Shown in pieces: positions 30,901 to 43,918 of a stretch of DNA of 64,000 nt (within the stretch, counting starts at the first letter, position 1; the number at the start of each line of letters is the position of its first letter). The notes under the pieces were generated by a model that did no database searches, was not told the DNA's origin, and worked only from the letters and a program-made list of their open reading frames with translations. Origin of the DNA: Flintibacter sp. KGMB00164 (lineage in GTDB: Bacteria; Bacillota; Clostridia; Oscillospirales; Oscillospiraceae); the NCBI RefSeq assembly GCF_008727735.1, contig NZ_CP044227.1, forward strand, positions 1,550,001 through 1,614,000, given 5' to 3'. Made by a program: the position numbers and the translations under genes.

Positions 30901-31206
30901 ATGCTGAAGTACATACGAGCCCTGCAAACATGCTGCTTCCCGCTGCCATCCCGTAAGCGAGAACTCCGTGAGATCGAGCAAATTCATCAGGAACTCAACG
31001 GTCGTTTGAACCGCAGAGACCGGGCCAGACTCCAGTGCCTGATGGACCAAACAGAAAGCCTGCGCAAGCTGACAGCGGAGGACCACTTCGCAGCTGGAGT
31101 TGCCCTTGGCTGGCATCTGCGGGAGGAACTGCAGCGAGAGGGAATTCTCGTCAAGGAACAGGCGAAAGGGGGGAGCTGCGGTGGCAAAGCGACGTCCATC
31201 CGGTGA
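30901..31206 (+). CDS. small DUF6809-like protein
   Basis: A 101-residue protein. ATG 30901 follows AAAGGAGGCAGGAGG. Pattern: LPSRKRELREIEQIHQEL ... LMDQTESL ... HFAAGVALGWHL, matching from memory a family of short proteins found near recombinases in gut Firmicutes. Function unknown. Its last 26 bases overlap the first integrase gene, so they are coupled. Confidence 0.65.
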   Translation: MLKYIRALQTCCFPLPSRKRELREIEQIHQELNGRLNRRDRARLQCLMDQTESLRKLTAEDHFAAGVALGWHLREELQREGILVKEQAKGGSCGGKATSIR

Positions 31207-32338
31207 CGGCATGGTCCGCAAGCGGGAAGATGGCCGCTGGGAGGGTCGCATTGTCATTAGTCACAAGGCAAACGGCGCGCCCATCTTCCGCTATGTGTCG
31301 GCCAAGACCCAGAAGGAACTGCTGAAAAAGCTCCATCAAAACATCGAGGAATACCGGGACGTGAATCTGAACGAGGGCAGCAAAATGCCTCTGGGGCAGT
31401 GGCTGGAACGCTGGCTGGAGGAGTACGCTGCCCCCTCGGTGCGGCCCTCTACACTGGAGGGCTACCGGGGGTACATCGAGCGAAATATCAAGCCTTACCT
31501 GGGCGACAAGCCGGTGGGAAAGGTAACCCGTGAGGATGTCCAGAAGCTGTACCGAGAGCTCCAGAAAAATGGGCGGAAGGAGTTCCATCCGGAGCATGGA
31601 CACAAGCTGTCTGGCAGCTCCATCCGCCGGATTCACGGGGTGTTCCACCTGGCCATGGACGCGGCGGTGCGGGAAAACCTCATCGCCCGGAATCCCACCG
31701 AGGGCATCACCCTGCCCAAGAAGAAAACGGCTCCCAAGCAGATTCTCAACGACGCCCAGCTGGAGCGCTTCATGGATGTAATTCAGAAGGATGAGGTCTG
31801 GCACGACTTCTTCTACACGGAGCTGACCACCGGACTGCGGCGGGGGGAGATCTGCGGCCTTATGTGGAGCGACTTCGATGCGGCCCATGGCACCCTCACC
31901 GTCCGCAGGACCATGCACGTCCAAAAGGGTGGCGGTCTGGCCGCGGGGGAGACCAAAACCGGGGCAGGAAAGCGGACCATCACCCTGCCGCCCAGCACGG
32001 TGGAGCTGCTGGCCAAAAGAAAGAAAAATTCCTACTCCCAGTGGATCTTTCCAAACCCTCTCCGGCCGGAGCAGCCCATCAATCCCAACGCCGCCTACGA
32101 CCACCTGAAGAAGCTGCTGCAACAGGCGGGGCTGCCCAGCATCCGCTTTCATGATCTTCGGCACACCTTCGCCACCCATGCCCTGGCCAGCGGAGTGGAC
32201 GCCAAGACTCTCTCCGGGATTCTGGGCCATACCCAGGCTTCCTTCACCCTGGACACGTACACCCATGTGACCGGTGACATGCAGAAACGGGCCAGTGAGA
32301 TCGTGGGTGGTTTCATGGAACACATCATGGTGAGGTGA
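31181..32338 (+). CDS. tyrosine recombinase (integrase 1)
   Basis: A 385-residue phage-type integrase. An N-terminal AP2-like arm-binding module (DGMVRKREDGRWEGRIVIS) is followed by a SAM-like core-binding domain (about 65-170) and the catalytic domain: Arg in TTGLRRGE, HDLRHTFATH, GHT and the tyrosine in TLDTYTHV. GTG 31181 follows AAAGGGGGGAGC. It overlaps the DUF6809-like gene and lies 5 bases before a second recombinase gene. It is a good candidate for tRNA-Pro integration and excision. Confidence 0.93.
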   Translation: MAKRRPSGDGMVRKREDGRWEGRIVISHKANGAPIFRYVSAKTQKELLKKLHQNIEEYRDVNLNEGSKMPLGQWLERWLEEYAAPSVRPSTLEGYRGYIERNIKPYLGDKPVGKVTREDVQKLYRELQKNGRKEFHPEHGHKLSGSSIRRIHGVFHLAMDAAVRENLIARNPTEGITLPKKKTAPKQILNDAQLERFMDVIQKDEVWHDFFYTELTTGLRRGEICGLMWSDFDAAHGTLTVRRTMHVQKGGGLAAGETKTGAGKRTITLPPSTVELLAKRKKNSYSQWIFPNPLRPEQPINPNAAYDHLKKLLQQAGLPSIRFHDLRHTFATHALASGVDAKTLSGILGHTQASFTLDTYTHVTGDMQKRASEIVGGFMEHIMVR

Positions 32339-32343
32339 TAACA

Positions 32344-33927
32344 GTGGCAGGCAAGCGAAAAAAGGGAGAAGGCACCGTCCGCTTGCGGAAAGACGGCCGC
32401 TGGGAGGGCCGGGTGGTGGTGAGCTATGACGAGGCAGGCAACCCCAAGACGAAAAATGTGCTGGCGAAAACGAAAAAAGAGTGTGTCGCCAAGCTGGAAA
32501 AGCTGAAAGGGAAGTGCGGGGGCGTCCGGTCTACTCAGGTGCAGCCGGATATGCTCTTCCGTGACTGGCTGAACGAGTGGTACCAGAATGACGCAAAGCC
32601 CAGGCTGCGCCCCACTACACAGCTCCAGTACGAAGGCTTTCTCCAACATCATCTGATTCCTGGCCTGGGGGAGATCCCGCTGAACCAACTGACCCAAGGG
32701 GAGCTCCAGCAGTTCTTCCGGCACATGAAGGAGAGTGGGCGGAAGGTCCAGGTGGAGCGCTACGGCCCCGGCATGGCAGACCGGTCCGTGCGCAGCTGCC
32801 ACGCGGTCTGCCAGATGGCGCTGGACAAGGCGGTGGAGGAGAAGCTGATCCACTCCAACCCGGCAGTGGGATGCAAGTTACCGCCGCTGAAGGGCAAGGA
32901 GATGAAAATTCTGCCCCTGGAGGAGATTCAGCGCTTCCTCATCCAAGCCAAGGCGGAGGGAATGTACGAGCTCTTCCTGCTGGAATTGACCACTGGAATG
33001 CGACGGGGAGAACTGCTGGCCCTTCAGTGGGACGACCTGGATTTTGTCACCGGGAAGCTGCACATCGACAAGCAGGTCTATCCCGTGGGCGGCAAGCTCA
33101 TCATCAGCGAGCCCAAGACCAAGGCCGCCAACCGCACCATCATCCTGCCACCCGCCATGGTGGAGCTGCTGGCAGAGTACCAAAAAGGCGTGTTCTCGGA
33201 CCTGATGTTTCCCTCCCGCACCAAACCGGAGCAGCCCATCGACCCCTGCTATGTCCGTAAGCGGCTGCAGGTGATTCTGAAACGGGCGGGATGTAATAAA
33301 GTCCGGTTCCATGACCTCCGGCACACCTTCGCCACCATGTCTTTGGAGAATGGGATGGATATCAAGACGCTCTCTACCATCATCGGGCATGTCTCCGCAG
33401 AAACTACGCTGAACACCTACACCCACATCACCGACGAGATGCGGCAGAAGGCTGCCCTGAACATTGACCAGGGAATTGTAAAAGCGGAGGTGCCTCCCGC
33501 TCCAAAACGGAAAAAGAAGGAACCAGCAAGGACAGACTTCGTGCCAGTGCCCCTGTCCCGCCGCCGGCCGGGAACCGGGTGTATCAGCCAGATCAATGAG
33601 ACCCTGTGGGAGGGGCGGTACTCTCCCAAGTGGCCGGATGGGGTGAAACGTCCGCGAAATGTCTACGCCCACTCACTGGAGAAGTGCGAGGAGAAGTTAA
33701 AGGAGCTGATTCTGGAGATAAAAGGGGAGATGGCCGCCCTCCGCTCCGGAGCCAGCACAGAGTATCCGGAGGATGGCAATCCCAAGAAGAAGGCCATCAC
33801 CGCTTATCTGCTGGAACACCCAGGCGTGACCAACAAGTCTAGGATTGCCAGAGAGCTGCAGATGGACCGCTCGACGGTGCGGAGGTATTATGATGAGATC
33901 CGTGGAGAGCTGCGGCAACGCGTATAA
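32344..33927 (+). CDS. tyrosine recombinase (integrase 2) with C-terminal extension
   Basis: A 527-residue recombinase, about 140 longer than its neighbour. It has the same N-terminal module (GTVRLRKDGRWEGRVVVS), core-binding domain and catalytic residues (TTGMRRGE, HDLRHTFAT, GHVS, LNTYTHI). After residue 375 come a basic linker, a second copy-like arm-binding module (CISQINETLWEGRYSPK ... RNVYAHSLEKCEEKLKELI) and a C-terminal helix-turn-helix (VTNKSRIARELQMDRSTVRRYY). The start is GTG 32344 after GAGGTGAT; a GTG at 32335 overlaps the previous stop. Confidence 0.9.
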   Translation: MAGKRKKGEGTVRLRKDGRWEGRVVVSYDEAGNPKTKNVLAKTKKECVAKLEKLKGKCGGVRSTQVQPDMLFRDWLNEWYQNDAKPRLRPTTQLQYEGFLQHHLIPGLGEIPLNQLTQGELQQFFRHMKESGRKVQVERYGPGMADRSVRSCHAVCQMALDKAVEEKLIHSNPAVGCKLPPLKGKEMKILPLEEIQRFLIQAKAEGMYELFLLELTTGMRRGELLALQWDDLDFVTGKLHIDKQVYPVGGKLIISEPKTKAANRTIILPPAMVELLAEYQKGVFSDLMFPSRTKPEQPIDPCYVRKRLQVILKRAGCNKVRFHDLRHTFATMSLENGMDIKTLSTIIGHVSAETTLNTYTHITDEMRQKAALNIDQGIVKAEVPPAPKRKKKEPARTDFVPVPLSRRRPGTGCISQINETLWEGRYSPKWPDGVKRPRNVYAHSLEKCEEKLKELILEIKGEMAALRSGASTEYPEDGNPKKKAITAYLLEHPGVTNKSRIARELQMDRSTVRRYYDEIRGELRQRV

Positions 33928-33936
33928 TAAAAATAC

Positions 33937-33983
33937 CGGGAGGACTGCACCTGAAAAGAACGCAGTCCTCCCGAATCTTTTTC
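33937..33983 (+). terminator. intrinsic terminator of the recombinase operon
   Basis: 12-bp stem CGGGAGGACTGC with GCAGTCCTCCCG, followed by AATCTTTTT. Confidence 0.92.
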
Positions 33984-34075
33984 GAAAGGTCTTGATTGTC
34001 CTGGGATGTCCGCTGTGCTATTATCATACTAAACTGATTTGGGAGAGTTCCAGCAACGGGGAGGGAAAATAGAGC

Positions 34076-34642
34076 ATGGAAAAAATCCGGTGTCATTGGG
34101 CAACCCCCAAGAATCCACTTTACCTTCAGTACCACGATGAGGAGTGGGGTATCCCGCTCCACGATGACCACAAGCTATTTGAAATGTTGATTTTGGAGAG
34201 CTTCCAGGCGGGGCTCTCCTGGGAGTGCATCCTCAACAAGCGGGAGGCATTCCGTCGGGCCTTCGATGAGTTTGACCTGGAGACGGTCTGCGGATATGGG
34301 GAAGAAAAGCTGGCAGCGCTGGGACAGGATCCCGGCATTGTCCGTAACAAACTGAAAATCCGCGCCGCCGTAAACAACGCCAGGATCTTCCGGACCATCC
34401 AGCAGGAGTGGGGGAGTTTCGACCGCTACCTCTGGCACTGGACGGAAGGGAAGACAATCTATGAGACAGGCAAGGTCAGTTCCGAACTGTCGGACGCCGT
34501 GTCCAAGGACTTAAAGCGCCGGGGCATGAAGTTCGTGGGGACGGTCATCATCTACTCCTACCTGCAGGCGGTGGGGGTCATCAATTCCCATGAGGAGTCC
34601 TGTTTTTGCAGACGAGCAAGGACATCCGCTGTACATTTGTGA
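34076..34642 (+). CDS. tag: DNA-3-methyladenine glycosylase I
   Basis: A 188-residue base-excision repair enzyme that removes 3-methyladenine. N-terminal zinc ligands are in RCHW and YHDEEWG (residues 5-26), the catalytic region ESFQAGLSWECIL near 41, and the C-terminal ligands in INSHEESCF near 169. The last dozen residues differ from the usual end. Start ATG follows GGGGAGGG. It is a lone gene between the recombinases and the RT unit, so it may be island cargo. Confidence 0.93.
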   Translation: MEKIRCHWATPKNPLYLQYHDEEWGIPLHDDHKLFEMLILESFQAGLSWECILNKREAFRRAFDEFDLETVCGYGEEKLAALGQDPGIVRNKLKIRAAVNNARIFRTIQQEWGSFDRYLWHWTEGKTIYETGKVSSELSDAVSKDLKRRGMKFVGTVIIYSYLQAVGVINSHEESCFCRRARTSAVHL

Positions 34643-34740
34643 GCTGGCAGAGGCCTAAAAATAATTCTCAAATTTTTTGAGCCGCAGTAAATAAAGAGAA
34701 GACACTCCTTGTAAAAATGGGACAGCCTTCCTGAGCCGTT

Positions 34741-35136
34741 CTAGAGGGAGCCCAGAATATCCAAAGGTAAGCAACTCAAAGGTAAGGTACAGAACTGGCT
34801 TGAAAAATGTAAATAATTTGTAAAATAGCACTCGCATTCAATGAGTGCCAGTTGACACATTCGAAAAAATGTTCTATAATATAAATGCCCTATGCGAAAG
34901 GCGTAGGGGAGGAATATTGTCGTCAACCCTTTCTTCATAATTTCTGCCAGTAGACTGCGCAGGAGTTCTTGGAGCTGGAGTGACTGATCATAAGCCCACC
35001 AGCTGGTGGCCGCCATCAGACACATCCAGTAGGCAATGACACAAGCTTCCCGCTCAATTGTATCACAGTTGAGCATTGCAATCTGGGCAGCCGGTTTCCT
35101 TAGACACACACCAAACAGGTGAAGCGGGAGGCTGCG
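34741..35136 (-). other. antisense open frame across the putative ncRNA
   Basis: Minus-strand frame without stop for 131 codons, running through the whole putative ncRNA and its promoter. No convincing ribosome-binding site or ATG begins it. Within 35018-35108 it is the only one of the six frames that stays open, and the two AGACACA repeats (35018, 35102) are in phase (84 bases). It may be the coding phase of an RT-made repeat gene, or chance. Confidence 0.3.
34852..34880 (+). promoter_or_regulatory. consensus promoter of the putative RT-associated ncRNA
   Basis: TTGACA (34852-34857), 17-base spacer, TATAAT (34875-34880): a perfect sigma-A promoter. Transcription would start near 34887, about 320 bases before the RT start codon. 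Confidence 0.85.
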
Positions 35137-35190
35137 TTAAAACGTATATCCGTCGACTAAGGGATGCTGCCCCCCGTGTCGACGGATATT
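34887..35190 (+). ncRNA. putative structured ncRNA template upstream of the reverse transcriptase
   Basis: No sense-strand gene is present. At the 5' end is a hairpin CCCTATGC-GAAAG-GCGTAGGG (34888-34908). In the middle an extended stem pairs CCAG/CTGG (35026-35029/35083-35086) and GCAATG/CATTGC (35033-35038/35074-35079) with inner hairpin GCTCAA/TTGAGC (35052-35057/35069-35074). GCTTCCCGC (35045) could pair alternatively with GCGGGAGGC (35124). The 3' end is a perfect 12-bp hairpin ATATCCGTCGAC/GTCGACGGATAT (35146-35157/35178-35189). Known DRT2 and DRT9 systems use such an upstream ncRNA as the RT template. Boundaries are estimates. Confidence 0.55.
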
Positions 35191-35209
35191 GCAATTTTGA
35201 GGAGTTGTT

Positions 35210-36574
35210 ATGACGAACCAAGAATGGCTGACCTCTGAAACTACGATAGAAAAAAGTCGAAGATCATATGCCCATTTTGACTGCCGGACAGATATTGCCC
35301 AGCAACGGGCCTATATATCGGTCCCGCAAAATATAGAGCGGCATGGGTTTTACCCATTTATTCATTATCAGAAGAAACAAGTTAAATTTAATAAAGAAAC
35401 CGGGCCCAAAGAGAAAACACGAGATATTTGTTATGCGTCACACATTGATCGCTGTATTTATCAGTACTATTGCTTCTTGCTGGGGAAGGATTATAACCAG
35501 CGCGTTACCAGAGATGGGCTGTCAAAAGTTGCTGTAGCATATCGGACGGATTTGCATGAAAACAACATTCATTTTGCTAAGCGGGTAATTCAATTTGTTC
35601 GTAGCAATTCTCCCTGCTACATTATGATAGGAGACTTTACTGGCTTTTTTGACCACCTGGACCATAAATATTTAAAAGAGCAATGGTGCTCATTGATGAG
35701 AGTGCCTAAACTTTCAAAAGATCACTATAAAGTATTTCGAAGTGTGACCCATTATAGTACGTGGGAGTTGTCTGATTTGTTATCCTTGAACGGCCTAAAG
35801 GATAACTGGACAGGACGTAGAACATTGAATTCTATGTTGCGTGTGCTGACACCAGAAGAATATAAGGCTAATTCAAATAGGGATCATATCAAGCGAAATC
35901 CAGATACATTTGGAATACCACAAGGTTCTCCAATCAGTGGACTACTTGCCAATGTCTATATGTTAGAGGTGGATAAGACGGTCAATGATTTGGTAACAGA
36001 ACAAAATGGCCTTTATATGCGGTATAGTGATGATTTTATTGTTGTGTTACCTGATGCTGGACCAACGACTCTCCAGATTCTTGAGGATGTATCAGCCAAG
36101 TTCAATAGTGTTCCTGGATTGACTTTGGAACCGAATAAGACTCAGTATTTCCGATATGAAAATACGCAGTTAGAGAACTGTGGGTCATTGTTTGGAGTAC
36201 CTTTGGAAGGACAAAAGAGATTCATCAACTTCCTTGGGTTTACTTTCGATGGAAAAACTGTATCAATTCGAATGAAAACATTGGGTAAATATTATTATCG
36301 AATGTACAGTAAGGTAAAGACGATACGGAAAAGCGGCAATTACTCTCCGAAAGGAAAGCATATTAGCAATAAAAATTTATATGCCCTGTATTCTATCAAA
36401 GGTGCGAGGGGGAGCCAAATTGTTCAAGAGAATGGGAGAAAAAAATGGCATTCAGGAAATTTCCTATCATATGTTCAGCGTGCAACTAAAGAATTTGGCT
36501 CAGATGAATCCATTGAAAGAGACACTAAGAACCACATGGCAAAAATAAGCAGAGCATTGAAGGGGAAAAAGTAA
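35210..36574 (+). CDS. defence-type (UG/DRT) reverse transcriptase
   Basis: A 454-residue reverse transcriptase. Motif A GDFTGFFDHLDH (residues 141-152), motif B GIPQGSPISGLLAN (235-248), the active site YSDDF (272-276), LEPNKTQ near 306 and NFLGF near 340. The N-terminus has SYAHFDCRTD, PFIHYQKK and the KTRDICYASHIDRCIYQYY block typical, as I recall, of UG2/UG3-like antiviral RTs. It has no maturase X domain, so it is not a group II intron protein, and no retron msr-msd or DGR variable repeat is evident. The start follows GAGGAG. An ncRNA-like region precedes it; DRT2-like is my best guess at subtype. Confidence 0.82.
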   Translation: MTNQEWLTSETTIEKSRRSYAHFDCRTDIAQQRAYISVPQNIERHGFYPFIHYQKKQVKFNKETGPKEKTRDICYASHIDRCIYQYYCFLLGKDYNQRVTRDGLSKVAVAYRTDLHENNIHFAKRVIQFVRSNSPCYIMIGDFTGFFDHLDHKYLKEQWCSLMRVPKLSKDHYKVFRSVTHYSTWELSDLLSLNGLKDNWTGRRTLNSMLRVLTPEEYKANSNRDHIKRNPDTFGIPQGSPISGLLANVYMLEVDKTVNDLVTEQNGLYMRYSDDFIVVLPDAGPTTLQILEDVSAKFNSVPGLTLEPNKTQYFRYENTQLENCGSLFGVPLEGQKRFINFLGFTFDGKTVSIRMKTLGKYYYRMYSKVKTIRKSGNYSPKGKHISNKNLYALYSIKGARGSQIVQENGRKKWHSGNFLSYVQRATKEFGSDESIERDTKNHMAKISRALKGKK

Positions 36575-36579
36575 ACACA

Positions 36580-36766
36580 AAATCTGTGCCGCGGAAAACA
36601 AAAAGGGAGGGCACCCCTTCTGAAACGGGGTACCCCTCCTGTGGTCAAACCAGAAACCTGTCTGTGGTATTTCTGTGGTCAGATGGAAAAGTGAATTTTT
36701 GGCTCTCAATTTTCGCAACAAAAAGTAAGAAAAAACCGCCATTTTCGTACGAAAATGGCGGTTTTT
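36580..36766. repeat. right copy of the long direct repeat
   Basis: Matches about 11405-11593 imperfectly, including CAGAAACC, GTCTGTGGTATTTCTGTGGTCAGATG and the hairpin AACCGCCATTTTC/GAAAATGGCGGTT (36734-36763), which also acts as terminator for the minus-strand tRNA. Confidence 0.7.
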
Positions 36767-36842
36767 TGGTCCGAGTGGCGGGATTTGAACCCACGGCCTC
36801 ATGGACCCGAACCATGCGCGCTACCAACTGCGCTACACCCGG
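36767..36842 (-). tRNA. tRNA-Pro (anticodon CGG)
   Basis: A 76-nt cloverleaf with encoded CCA: acceptor CCGGGTG/CACTCGG, D stem GCGC/GCGC, anticodon stem CATGG/CCATG with loop TTCGGGT, T stem GTGGG/CCCGC with loop TTCAAAT. The C-N-G start and A73 discriminator fit tRNA-Pro. Its 3' half is duplicated at 11594-11639. Confidence 0.96.
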
Positions 36843-36877
36843 ATGCTGATTGTCGTTTTCACGACCATAGCTTATAC

Positions 36878-36906
36878 ATTATAAATTTCTTCCCTGACGA
36901 TGTCAA
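36878..36906 (-). promoter_or_regulatory. promoter of tRNA-Pro
   Basis: On the minus strand TTGACA (36901-36906) and TATAAT (36878-36883) are 17 bases apart, ending 35 bases before the mature 5' end. Confidence 0.9.
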
Positions 36907-36971
36907 GAGGAATAATGGAATTCTCCATGGAATATCCTATTTTATCAAAAACATCAAAAGGGGGAGTGAGG

Positions 36972-38021
36972 ATGGAGCATACCAGCGCATCCTACCGCGT
37001 ATACCGGACAAGCGGCCGTTCCGCCGCCAGGCGGAACCGAGGCAATCAAAGCGGGCTCTCGCCCAAGGAGCGGGTGCGCCTGGTACAGCTGTGTGTGTGC
37101 CTGGTGCTGTTTCTGGCGGTGTTTGTGGGGAAGGGAGCCTTCCCGCAGCAGCTGGCCCAGATTCAAAACAAGCTGGTGTCGGCGCTGACGGCAGACACCG
37201 ACTTCCGCGCCGCTTTTTCTAAGTTGGGGGAGTCCCTGGGAACCCAGGACTCGGTGCTGGGGGAGCTGGAGGACTTCTGCGTGGAGGTCTTTGGCATCCA
37301 ACCTTCCGGGGCCGGTGACGATTTGGAGGGTCAAAGCCAGACTCAGCAGGAGCAGGCCTTTCTCAATGCCGGGGCCTCCTCCGCCGACCTGGCCGCCCAC
37401 TACCTGCGCCTGGAGGATATGCCTCAGGACTGGCTGAGCGGGGGAGATGCTGTGTCGGAGACCCCGGAGACAGCACCAGAGCCTCAGGCCCAAGCTCAGC
37501 CCGAGGCAGCGGCGGCCCAGCCGGAGGAGACCGTGCCGGCGGTAGGCACTGTGCTGCTGTCGGCAAACTACGAAGGCCCGGCACTGCCCAACAATTATAC
37601 GATGGATAAACTGTCCCTGGGAGCGCTGGAGACCGTCAATCCCATTCTGGGCCACCTCAACTCGGTGTACGGCTACCGGGACCACCCGGTGGACGGGGAG
37701 TATAAATTCCACAACGGAGTGGACATCGGTGGACAGATGGGGGACCCCATCGGCGCCTTTGCCGCCGGGACGGTGGAGTACATCGGCGAGAATGACGACC
37801 ACGGGCTGTATCTGCAGATCGACCACGGCAACGGCGTTAAGAGCTTCTATGCCCACTGCAGCAAGCTGTGTGTCTCCCAGGGCCAGACTGTGGCGGCAGG
37901 GGAGACGGTGGCCCTGGTTGGCTCCACCGGGGTGTCCACCGGCCCTCACCTGCATCTGGAGATCAAATGCAACGGGGTGCACGTGGACCCGGCCTACTAC
38001 GTCACCTTCCTTACCGACTGA
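36972..38021 (+). CDS. M23 peptidase-domain protein, SpoIVFA-like
   Basis: A 349-residue membrane-anchored protein: basic N-terminus, one membrane segment at about residues 36-56, a linker rich in Ala/Pro/Glu/Gln (about 170-205), and a LytM/M23 domain with HNGVDIGG near 251 and HLHLEI near 330. ATG 36972 follows GGGGGAGTGAGG. It abuts an M50 protease gene with the order and type of spoIVFA-spoIVFB, where FA holds FB in check during pro-sigma-K processing. M23 metal ligands appear kept, so it could also be a true endopeptidase or a SpoIIQ-like protein. Confidence 0.8.
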   Translation: MEHTSASYRVYRTSGRSAARRNRGNQSGLSPKERVRLVQLCVCLVLFLAVFVGKGAFPQQLAQIQNKLVSALTADTDFRAAFSKLGESLGTQDSVLGELEDFCVEVFGIQPSGAGDDLEGQSQTQQEQAFLNAGASSADLAAHYLRLEDMPQDWLSGGDAVSETPETAPEPQAQAQPEAAAAQPEETVPAVGTVLLSANYEGPALPNNYTMDKLSLGALETVNPILGHLNSVYGYRDHPVDGEYKFHNGVDIGGQMGDPIGAFAAGTVEYIGENDDHGLYLQIDHGNGVKSFYAHCSKLCVSQGQTVAAGETVALVGSTGVSTGPHLHLEIKCNGVHVDPAYYVTFLTD

Positions 38022-38624
38022 GTGCGTCTGGGCAGGGTAGAGGTCAGCGGCGGCTTTCTTTTGCTGCTGGCCTGGCTCAACTATACCGATACCCAGGGGC
38101 TGATCCCCCAGGCCGTTGTCTCCTGCGCCCTGCATGAGGGGGGACATTGGCTGGCCATCCAGGCCGTGGGCGGTAAGGTGAAGCGCATGCGGCTGGGAAT
38201 CGCGGGAGCGGAGATGGAGCTGGGCCGTCCTCTGTCCTACTCCAGAGAGGCGCTGTGCGCCCTGGCCGGGCCGGGGGTGAGCCTGGCTCTGGCCTGGCTG
38301 GGACATTTCCTGCCCGGCGGCGCTCTGTTTGCGGGCATCAACCTGGTGCTGGCCCTCTTTAACCTGCTGCCGGTAAGCGGCCTGGACGGAGGGAGGGTAC
38401 TCCACTGCGCCCTGTGCGCCCTGGCCGGACCGGAGGCAGCGGAGCGGACAGCCGGCTTTCTGGACGGATTTTTGGTAGGTGTACTGGTAGCCGGAGGGGT
38501 CATTTTGGCCTGGAAGGGGGGCAGCATCACCCTGCTTTTTACCGCAGGATGGCTATTTTCTTCCATTTGGCGTGAAAAGGAAGGAAAAAGGGGTTGCCAG
38601 ATAGGGGTGAAACGAGTAAAATAG
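38022..38624 (+). CDS. M50 site-2-type protease, SpoIVFB-like
   Basis: A 200-residue membrane metalloprotease. The zinc site HEGGH lies in a membrane segment (near residue 39) and the third ligand region NLLPVSGLDGGR is near residue 108. It starts at GTG directly after the stop of the M23 gene, so the two are translated together. SpoIVFB proteins cut pro-sigma-K in the mother cell; this one lacks an obvious C-terminal CBS domain, like short clostridial forms. The role is inferred from pairing. Confidence 0.85.
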   Translation: MRLGRVEVSGGFLLLLAWLNYTDTQGLIPQAVVSCALHEGGHWLAIQAVGGKVKRMRLGIAGAEMELGRPLSYSREALCALAGPGVSLALAWLGHFLPGGALFAGINLVLALFNLLPVSGLDGGRVLHCALCALAGPEAAERTAGFLDGFLVGVLVAGGVILAWKGGSITLLFTAGWLFSSIWREKEGKRGCQIGVKRVK

Positions 38625-43526: not shown

Positions 43527-43563
43527 AAAAACAGGCATGCGCAGATGCGCATGCCTGTTTTTG
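43527..43563. terminator. terminator shared by the DUF6291-like gene and rnpB
   Basis: 14-bp stem AAACAGGCATGCGC/GCGCATGCCTGTTT with a 4-base loop and A/T runs on both sides; works for both converging transcripts. Confidence 0.9.
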
Positions 43564-43566
43564 GTA

Positions 43567-43918
43567 CAAGTAAGCCTGTAAGCCGGGTTCTGTCTTTTAA
43601 GACAGCCATCTATCTCGACGCGCCGTTGCCGACGCGCTCCAGCCGCCTCCCCGGGACGGTCGGGCCAACCTATTGTCCCTCCACGGCGTTGCTCCGGATA
43701 GAGTTTACAGCGATGGACTGTTCCCAGCCATCGGGTGAGCTCTTACCTCGCCTTTCCACCCTTACTGGCGGCAAGCCGCCAGCGGTATATCTCTGTTGCA
43801 CTTTTCCTAGGGTCGCCCCCGGCGGATGTTATCCGTTATCCTTGCCCTGTGGAGCCCGGACTTTCCTCACAGACGGGCCTTTCGCCCCGCCCGCGCGGCT
43901 GTCCAGCTTGCTTGCCAA
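43567..43918 (-). ncRNA. rnpB: RNase P RNA, class A
   Basis: On the minus strand the universally conserved GAGGAAAGTCCGGGCTCC lies near the 5' end (about 43850-43870) and the 3' AGAACCCGGCTTAC near 43580-43592. Size about 350 nt, as expected of class A. The ends are estimates, taken from the promoter and the shared terminator. Confidence 0.95.

Follow-up and report, generated by a model that had tools for sequence, protein, structure and literature searches.

The window considered here, the whole 64,000-nucleotide stretch of Flintibacter sp. KGMB00164 DNA, contains what is on sequence comparison a Bacillota DRT2 (UG2) anti-phage system, a Drt2 reverse transcriptase (RT) with a structured RNA in front of it. 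Very probably it acts by abortive infection via a concatemer of 159-nt units that are bounded by ATTG and encode an endless protein, Neo. The original prediction for this DNA, that the RT may jump between repeats as DRT2 does and that the antisense strand of the concatemer has an endless frame, is right in kind when sequences are compared, and the antisense frame it proposed is the correct one; the repeat from which it derived the unit fares differently, as described below. The linking of the names UG2 and Kpn-type, and of the organism of the solved Drt2 chains, to the proteins discussed is taken from papers and general background, not from the output of the structure search, and is an assumption on our part.

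The RT gene is intact. With PADLOC profiles its product gives 476.8 and 300.4 bits as Drt2, 73.8 for the next family and 71 as Drt9; the NCBIfam Drt2 model gives 388.8 bits, 1.2 below its cutoff of 390, the Pfam match is RVT_1, and the solved Drt2 chains (PDB) match at E about 1e-53. There are several differences from the Kpn-type. The window RT shares 31% identity with Photobacterium and Psychrobacter plasmid Drt2. With the solved chains it reaches 186 bits, compared with 479 for the Photobacterium RT, and it lies outside the 7-row tree clade with the Photobacterium and E. coli Drt2; the active site is YCDD in that clade and YSDD in the window. YCDD is also present in two phage loci (L075 and L076, in our numbering of loci), both of which the tree places outside the Photobacterium/E. 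coli clade. The window itself is within a 25-row clade of the RT tree with support of 100/100. Two sequences (L058, L063) were left out of that tree as short, and three others (L015, L021, L028), for which the wrong ORF was probably picked, are on end branches of length 10, and no statement here relies on them.

Features of the DRT2 locus (positions in the window; features other than the RT gene are predicted)
Feature	Position	Strand	Remarks
ncRNA	about 34886-35195		predicted ends; directly before the RT gene
Likely ncRNA/RT promoter	34852..34880	+	TTGACA 34852-34857, 17 bp, TATAAT 34875-34880; just before the start of the Rfam RT-6 match at 34886
5′ handle hairpin of ncRNA	34886..34909	+	Rfam RT-6 match, MFE fold; 'handle' named after PMC12039810
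Template (neo proto-unit), 159 nt, 53 codons	34916..35074	-	LNCDTIEREACVIAYWMCLMAATSWWAYDQSLQLQELLRSLLAEIMKKGLTTM; last codon spans the junction
5′ jump-repeat copy ATTG (end of each cDNA unit)	34916..34919	+	distance to 3′ copy equals the promoter-derived unit length
-35 of junction promoter, TTGACG	34921..34926	-	exact TTGACA in 54 of the 63 loci with a pair
9-bp hairpin with -10 complement	35053..35073	+	88.9% of cells paired, 26 sequences; MFE
-10 of junction promoter, TACAAT	35057..35062	-	12 nt from unit end; exact TATAAT in 42 of the 63 loci with a pair
3′ jump-repeat copy ATTG (landing site)	35075..35078	+	159 nt from 5′ copy
Pseudoknot strand GGGCAGC	35085..35091	+	partner 35166-35172; 100% of cells paired, 26/26 sequences
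Small CACC/GGTG hairpin	35109..35121	+	weakly conserved, 45.2% of cells paired
12-bp hairpin whose loop (35166-35172) forms the pseudoknot	35146..35189	+	99.0% of cells paired; 8/12 pairs changed on both sides
TTGCAAT near presumed ncRNA 3′ end	35189..35195	+	complements ATTGCAA 35075-35081; 63.5% of cells paired; possible self-primer
Drt2 reverse transcriptase, 454 aa	35210..36574	+	YSDD active site; PADLOC, NCBIfam and PDB Drt2 matches

The repeat unit and a rule blind to its reading frame

What is the unit that is repeated? Most likely it is 34916-35074, 53 codons bounded by ATTG. When its ends are joined, TTGACG comes to stand 17 bp from TACAAT on the antisense strand, as TACAAT begins 12 nt into the unit counted from 35074 and a further 5 nt separate TTGACG from the unit end at 34916, which together make 17. 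The resulting candidate promoter across the repeat junction is of sigma-70 type and has 10 of the 12 consensus letters, both of its elements being off consensus. Only one of the six frames of the unit is open; it is antisense, over a length that is a multiple of three, with 53 residues per repeat. The eight close relatives that were the source of the idea have the same arrangement, with lengths of 159 (five of them), 147, 144 and 132. The window alone would prove little, since 16% of shuffles of the 159-nt unit are open antisense.

The arrangement is familiar. In Kpn-type DRT2, according to PMC12039810, the antisense concatemer rebuilds a promoter, with TATAAT near the unit start, TTGACA near its end and 17 bp across the junction, and the template, whose unit is 111-129 nt, is flanked by ACA jump motifs (ACA-1/ACA-2). 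With KpnDRT2 (neo), as presented in PMC12039810 and PMC11100668, the window shares a Drt2 RT, an upstream ncRNA with a 5′ hairpin and a pseudoknotted 3′ part, a template between short direct repeats, a -10 that starts 12 nt into the antisense unit, the 17-bp junction promoter and, as a prediction for the window, an antisense ORF, endless and hydrophobic, over a unit whose length is a multiple of three. It differs in that its jump repeat is ATTG and not ACA, and in that its 159-nt unit is outside the range just given.

Relatives came from a pattern scan of a species-genome collection that yielded 66 loci, and a rule for choosing the unit was applied to 70, i.e., the window, 59 of those 66, three phage loci and seven from plasmids or E. 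coli. The rule requires -35 and -10 words with at most one mismatch each, 17-bp spacing and a unit of 85-230 nt, and it ranks the candidates by the number of promoter matches plus the length of the shared repeat and takes the top one; the frame is never used. The genome loci dropped (L057, L059, L060, L061, L064, L065, L066) have a gene that is partial or lack DNA upstream of it, L081 was kept out for having 79 bases upstream only, the partial genes L070 and L071 were left out, and apparent repeat finds of genome-scan loci were not counted.

A pair was found in 63 of the 70 loci, with a unit that is a multiple of three in 58 and open antisense in 57 of the 63; 53 loci are open in the same antisense frame and 55 have exactly one open frame. 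For the window and genome loci only, the counts are 54/56 multiples of three and 53/56 open antisense, and without the window and the eight idea-forming loci they are 49/54 and 48/54. When loci are clustered at 70% identity, 31 of the 35 units are multiples of three (binomial p 1.8e-11), and the representatives are open antisense in 30 of 31 cases against 4.6 expected from dinucleotide shuffles. Open units range from 117 to 201 nt. Of the 57 open loci, 44 have a direct repeat of at least 4 nt whose copies are exactly one unit length apart, versus 0-15 at 24 other offsets (within 12 nt), a result that is favoured because repeat length is part of the score by which pairs were chosen. Among loci that were added later, L087 has an open unit of 138 nt and L088 one of 87 nt, and L085 fails. 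Upstream of the RT in L088 a 7-nt direct repeat, GTTGCAC, bounds the 87-nt unit, which has two open antisense frames and is possibly a very short Neo.

The rule finds no pair in seven loci: L052, where the upstream DNA is truncated, L054, L055, L056, L073, L077 and L080. In five (L040, L051, L072, L079, L082) the best pair is not a multiple of three, and in L027 the unit is a multiple of three but closed. Actually, L027 and L029 are on two contigs of one assembled genome and their Drt2 RTs are identical; L029 has the full template and L027 keeps the 3′ hairpin, the template part seemingly lost. In the Eggerthellaceae loci L054 and L055, placement by hand gives 129 nt and an open frame; in L056 it gives stops in frame. 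The DNA upstream of the RT in L056 keeps the 5′ ATTG and the -35, with no -10 found by the rule, and that locus is perhaps decayed.

How does the rule do on the published type? The positive control, the E. coli DRT2 L078, yields 117 nt and ACA, as published for Kpn-type, and among the six Kpn-clade loci (L072, L073, L077-L080) it is the one in which the rule as fixed succeeds. With relaxed matching, second-ranked open units are a 117-nt one with ACA in the E. coli DRT2 L077, where a weaker -35 has to be allowed, one of 111 nt with AGAT in L072 and one of 144 nt, at 16-bp spacing, in L079. Even then nothing is open among the top six candidates in L073 and L080, and a scan of L072 and L073 for ACA pairs gave no consistent unit.

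The RNA, its scaffold and the jump site

The stretch 34886-35195 has a predicted fold of -124.3 kcal/mol (z -5.4), and none of 100 shuffles is as stable. Its features, as predicted from sequence, are those of a structured upstream ncRNA with a 5′ handle and a pseudoknotted 3′ scaffold. In an alignment of 26 sequences, out of 34 gathered, there are changes on both sides at 5/7 pairs of the pseudoknot between 35085-35091 and 35166-35172; as a control, with all tested helices taken together, a shift of the partners by 1-3 columns lowers the paired cells from 86% to 30-46%. The 12-bp hairpin at 35146-35189 likely corresponds to a portion of the Kpn 3′ scaffold, and the CACC/GGTG hairpin possibly to the Kpn 'buttress', both by analogy.

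Rfam RT-6 (RF03027) matches 34886-34972 with 52.4 bits, the gathering score being 46.7, and so extends over just the 5′ handle and the beginning of the template. The Rfam output gives no function for it; it is read here as part of the DRT2 ncRNA, and looks like the 5′ part of that RNA in the window lineage. It also matches 16 of the 18 genome-scan loci checked, the two without a match being L044 and L050. Another family, RT-12 (RF03016), has matches directly upstream of the RT in L072 (Photobacterium) and L078 (E. coli), and because of that adjacency it appears to be the 3′ portion of the Kpn-type DRT2 RNA; the window, unlike these, is without an RT-12 match at the gathering score.

In the window's 25-row clade ATTG is, or lies within, the shared repeat in 23, the exceptions being L027 and L056. 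Elsewhere the shared repeats are ATT and AGTAT, GTAT in the C. difficile phage L075 and in L076, AATC in Selenomonas (L044), AGAT in L072 and ATGA in L087; in L033, L045, L049 and L053 the shared repeat is AT only, which leaves the actual jump word uncertain. There is no ACA at either end of the promoter-defined window unit, and ATTG is there instead. The Kpn-type jumps on ACA; the window lineage appears to jump on ATTG.

The 3′ end of the ncRNA and the landing site are complementary over 7 nt in the window and five loci, and in L004 as CCAAT/ATTGG; the pairing is full only in close kin. In a self-priming test with 33 loci, own pairs were not clearly better than swapped ones (33/500). A tentative and rather doubtful proposal is that the DRT2 jump motif drifts by lineage with promoter spacing and frame being fixed, and that, as the close-kin 3′ end UUGCAAU complements the landing AUUGCAA, the first priming and the later jumps may share one site.

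The coding question and the rival readings

Is the unit coding? In 53 of the 53 loci open in it, the neo frame exceeds both other antisense frames in hydrophobicity, with a mean hydropathy of 0.83 against -0.72 and -0.25, and a hydrophobic bias is also reported for Kpn Neo in PMC12039810. A Shine-Dalgarno-like word, loosely defined as at least 4 nt, follows the -10 in 46/53, and in 27/53 relatives, the window not being among them, there is an in-frame start 3-14 nt past that word. The window's neo frame has a weak GGGA word and no well-placed start, its first in-frame ATG being 31 nt beyond the -10; judged by eye, one possibility is that decoding there would start at a junction ATG behind AAAGGG, at the end of the previous repeat. 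Pooled pN/pS, from pairs that are non-independent, is 0.68 for the neo frame versus 0.81 and 0.93 for the other two frames, and coding constraint by codon position is only weak. Amino-acid conservation of Neo, and selection on it, is weak. The Neo unit matches no annotated Pfam family up to E 1, and a search of viral contigs gave no stretch matching the peptide patterns.

Could the window copy be a decayed DRT2, with an architecture inherited from working relatives and a Neo that is no longer well expressed? Its off-consensus -35 and -10 (TTGACG, TACAAT) and want of a well-placed start codon would fit. However, its RT is intact with YSDD, its frame is open across 53 codons, TACAAT is common to other relatives, e.g., L011-L014, and since L001-L003, L007 and L009 are no better off for start codons the poor start looks like a subclade trait. 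Decay of the window copy is improbable.

Very improbable, in our estimation, is that the RT makes repeats whose product acts as DNA or RNA, the open frame being incidental. Weak amino-acid conservation is in keeping with this, and there are precedents for such products: according to PMC12483538 and PMC12632851, the product of DRT9 is poly-dA, with arguments raised against a coding role for it, and that of DRT10 is DNA made up of tandem repeats. These systems resemble the one considered here in having related RTs and RNA-templated synthesis of repeated DNA, and differ in that their products are poly-dA or short tandem repeats and in being protein-primed (same sources); as given above, the window RT also scores far lower as Drt9 than as Drt2. 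Against an incidental frame are the lengths that are multiples of three, the open frame in 30 of the 31 cluster representatives, the hydrophobic bias in 53/53 and the ribosome-binding-like sites.

The original prediction had the RT jumping between two copies of AGACACA, with an 84-nt concatemer and a 28-residue repeat as the outcome. The two copies are indeed at 35018-35024 and 35102-35108 with a spacing of 84 nt, and the 84-nt unit does have a single open antisense frame of 28 residues (CLRKPAAQIA...EACVIAYWM), the other five frames being stopped. As jump repeats they are most likely wrong. Though the spacing of 84 nt, a multiple of three, is kept in the window and in L001 and L002, its two nearest relatives, it is absent from the other 10 of the 13 loci compared (82 nt in L009, one copy in L003, none in the other eight), even if L003 and L005 have copies of a shorter word, GACACA, that are 81-83 nt apart. 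In an upstream alignment with eight close relatives the copy at 35018 is in a variable stretch and the one at 35102 is past a conserved block. Nor are repeat and frame above chance level: AGACACA occurs 8 times on both strands of the window versus 5.6 expected, a count reached by 16/100 shuffles, 34886-35195 has four exact 7-mer repeats 60-200 nt apart versus a shuffle mean of 1.3 (47/500 reach four), and of 2000 shuffles of the 84-nt unit 92% are open in at least one of the six frames and 48% antisense.

Would keeping of the frame in homologues, the other check suggested for that repeat, help? Over the 10 codons just outside the 159-nt unit the frame is open in 11 of 13 loci, with stops in L003 and L004, and because this outside stretch is so often open the frame by itself does not settle the matter, which is decided by spacing and scaffold. 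One pseudoknot strand, paired in 26/26 sequences and so scaffold rather than template, is inside the 84-nt unit. That the prediction nevertheless hit on the correct frame is because the genomic ORF 34741-35109 (-) runs through both the 84-nt and the 159-nt units. With the published type of junction promoter and the frame accounted for by the ATTG unit, and with a spacing that is not kept, a chance-level pair and scaffold inside, AGACACA as the jump site was rejected, its prospects being extremely slim.

The proposed mechanism, its distribution and its wider relevance

On the preferred reading, that of a 159-nt unit bounded by ATTG, the promoter at 34852 would make the RNA, to which the Drt2 RT would bind via the 5′ hairpin and the 3′ pseudoknotted scaffold, and the RT would copy the template, beginning at 35074 and running to 34916. 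Having copied the 5′ ATTG, the cDNA would end in ...CAAT-3′; this end would then release and re-anneal at 35075, on the 3′ copy of ATTG, where synthesis would restart to give head-to-tail 159-nt repeats, with each junction setting the -35 17 bp from the -10. Following second strand synthesis the concatemer would yield a transcript antisense to the ncRNA, and translation of this transcript would give Neo, an endless and hydrophobic protein built of 53-residue repeats, which would stop growth of the infected cell. The unit, its frame, the repeat, the junction promoter and the scaffold are features that sequence comparison supports; RT binding, concatemer synthesis, the phage trigger, the second strand, translation and toxicity are presumed by analogy with the Klebsiella DRT2 papers.

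Distribution is sparse, 5 of 400 genomes of the family, the window's own included, having a match, and of nine other genomes listed for the genus one carries the system, which fits a patchy defence gene. Upstream are two tandem tyrosine integrases (31100-33927), downstream a tRNA-Pro (cgg) at 36767-36842 (-), and L001 shares with the window the order of integrase-like stretch, ncRNA-RT and tRNA-Pro; DRT2 is placed as if in a tRNA-Pro integration site. A methyladenine glycosylase gene (34076-34642) is between integrase and DRT2 in the window, and a blastn of 31000-38100 gave no match to it in L001 or L002. Seven neighbouring genes between 27498 and 38624 gave no PADLOC match up to E 0.001. Further off, at 43563-43914 on the minus strand, is an RNase P RNA of bacterial class A.

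The main texts of PMC12039810 and PMC11100668 contain none of Firmicutes, Bacillota, Clostrid-, ATTG or AUUG, and among the literature matches listed none is, by title or abstract start, on this DRT2 lineage. According to the preprint PMC11100668, Neo was hard to annotate in divergent DRT2 clades, and other mechanisms were suggested as possible there. Given this, it is of significance that junction-promoter geometry and any shared repeat find a unit and an open frame in 53 of the 56 window and genome loci with a promoter pair, with ACA not being needed. This provides concrete, testable units for dozens of DRT2 systems, hints at what the RT-6 family of Rfam may do, and opens a route to other hidden genes that are assembled by reverse transcription.
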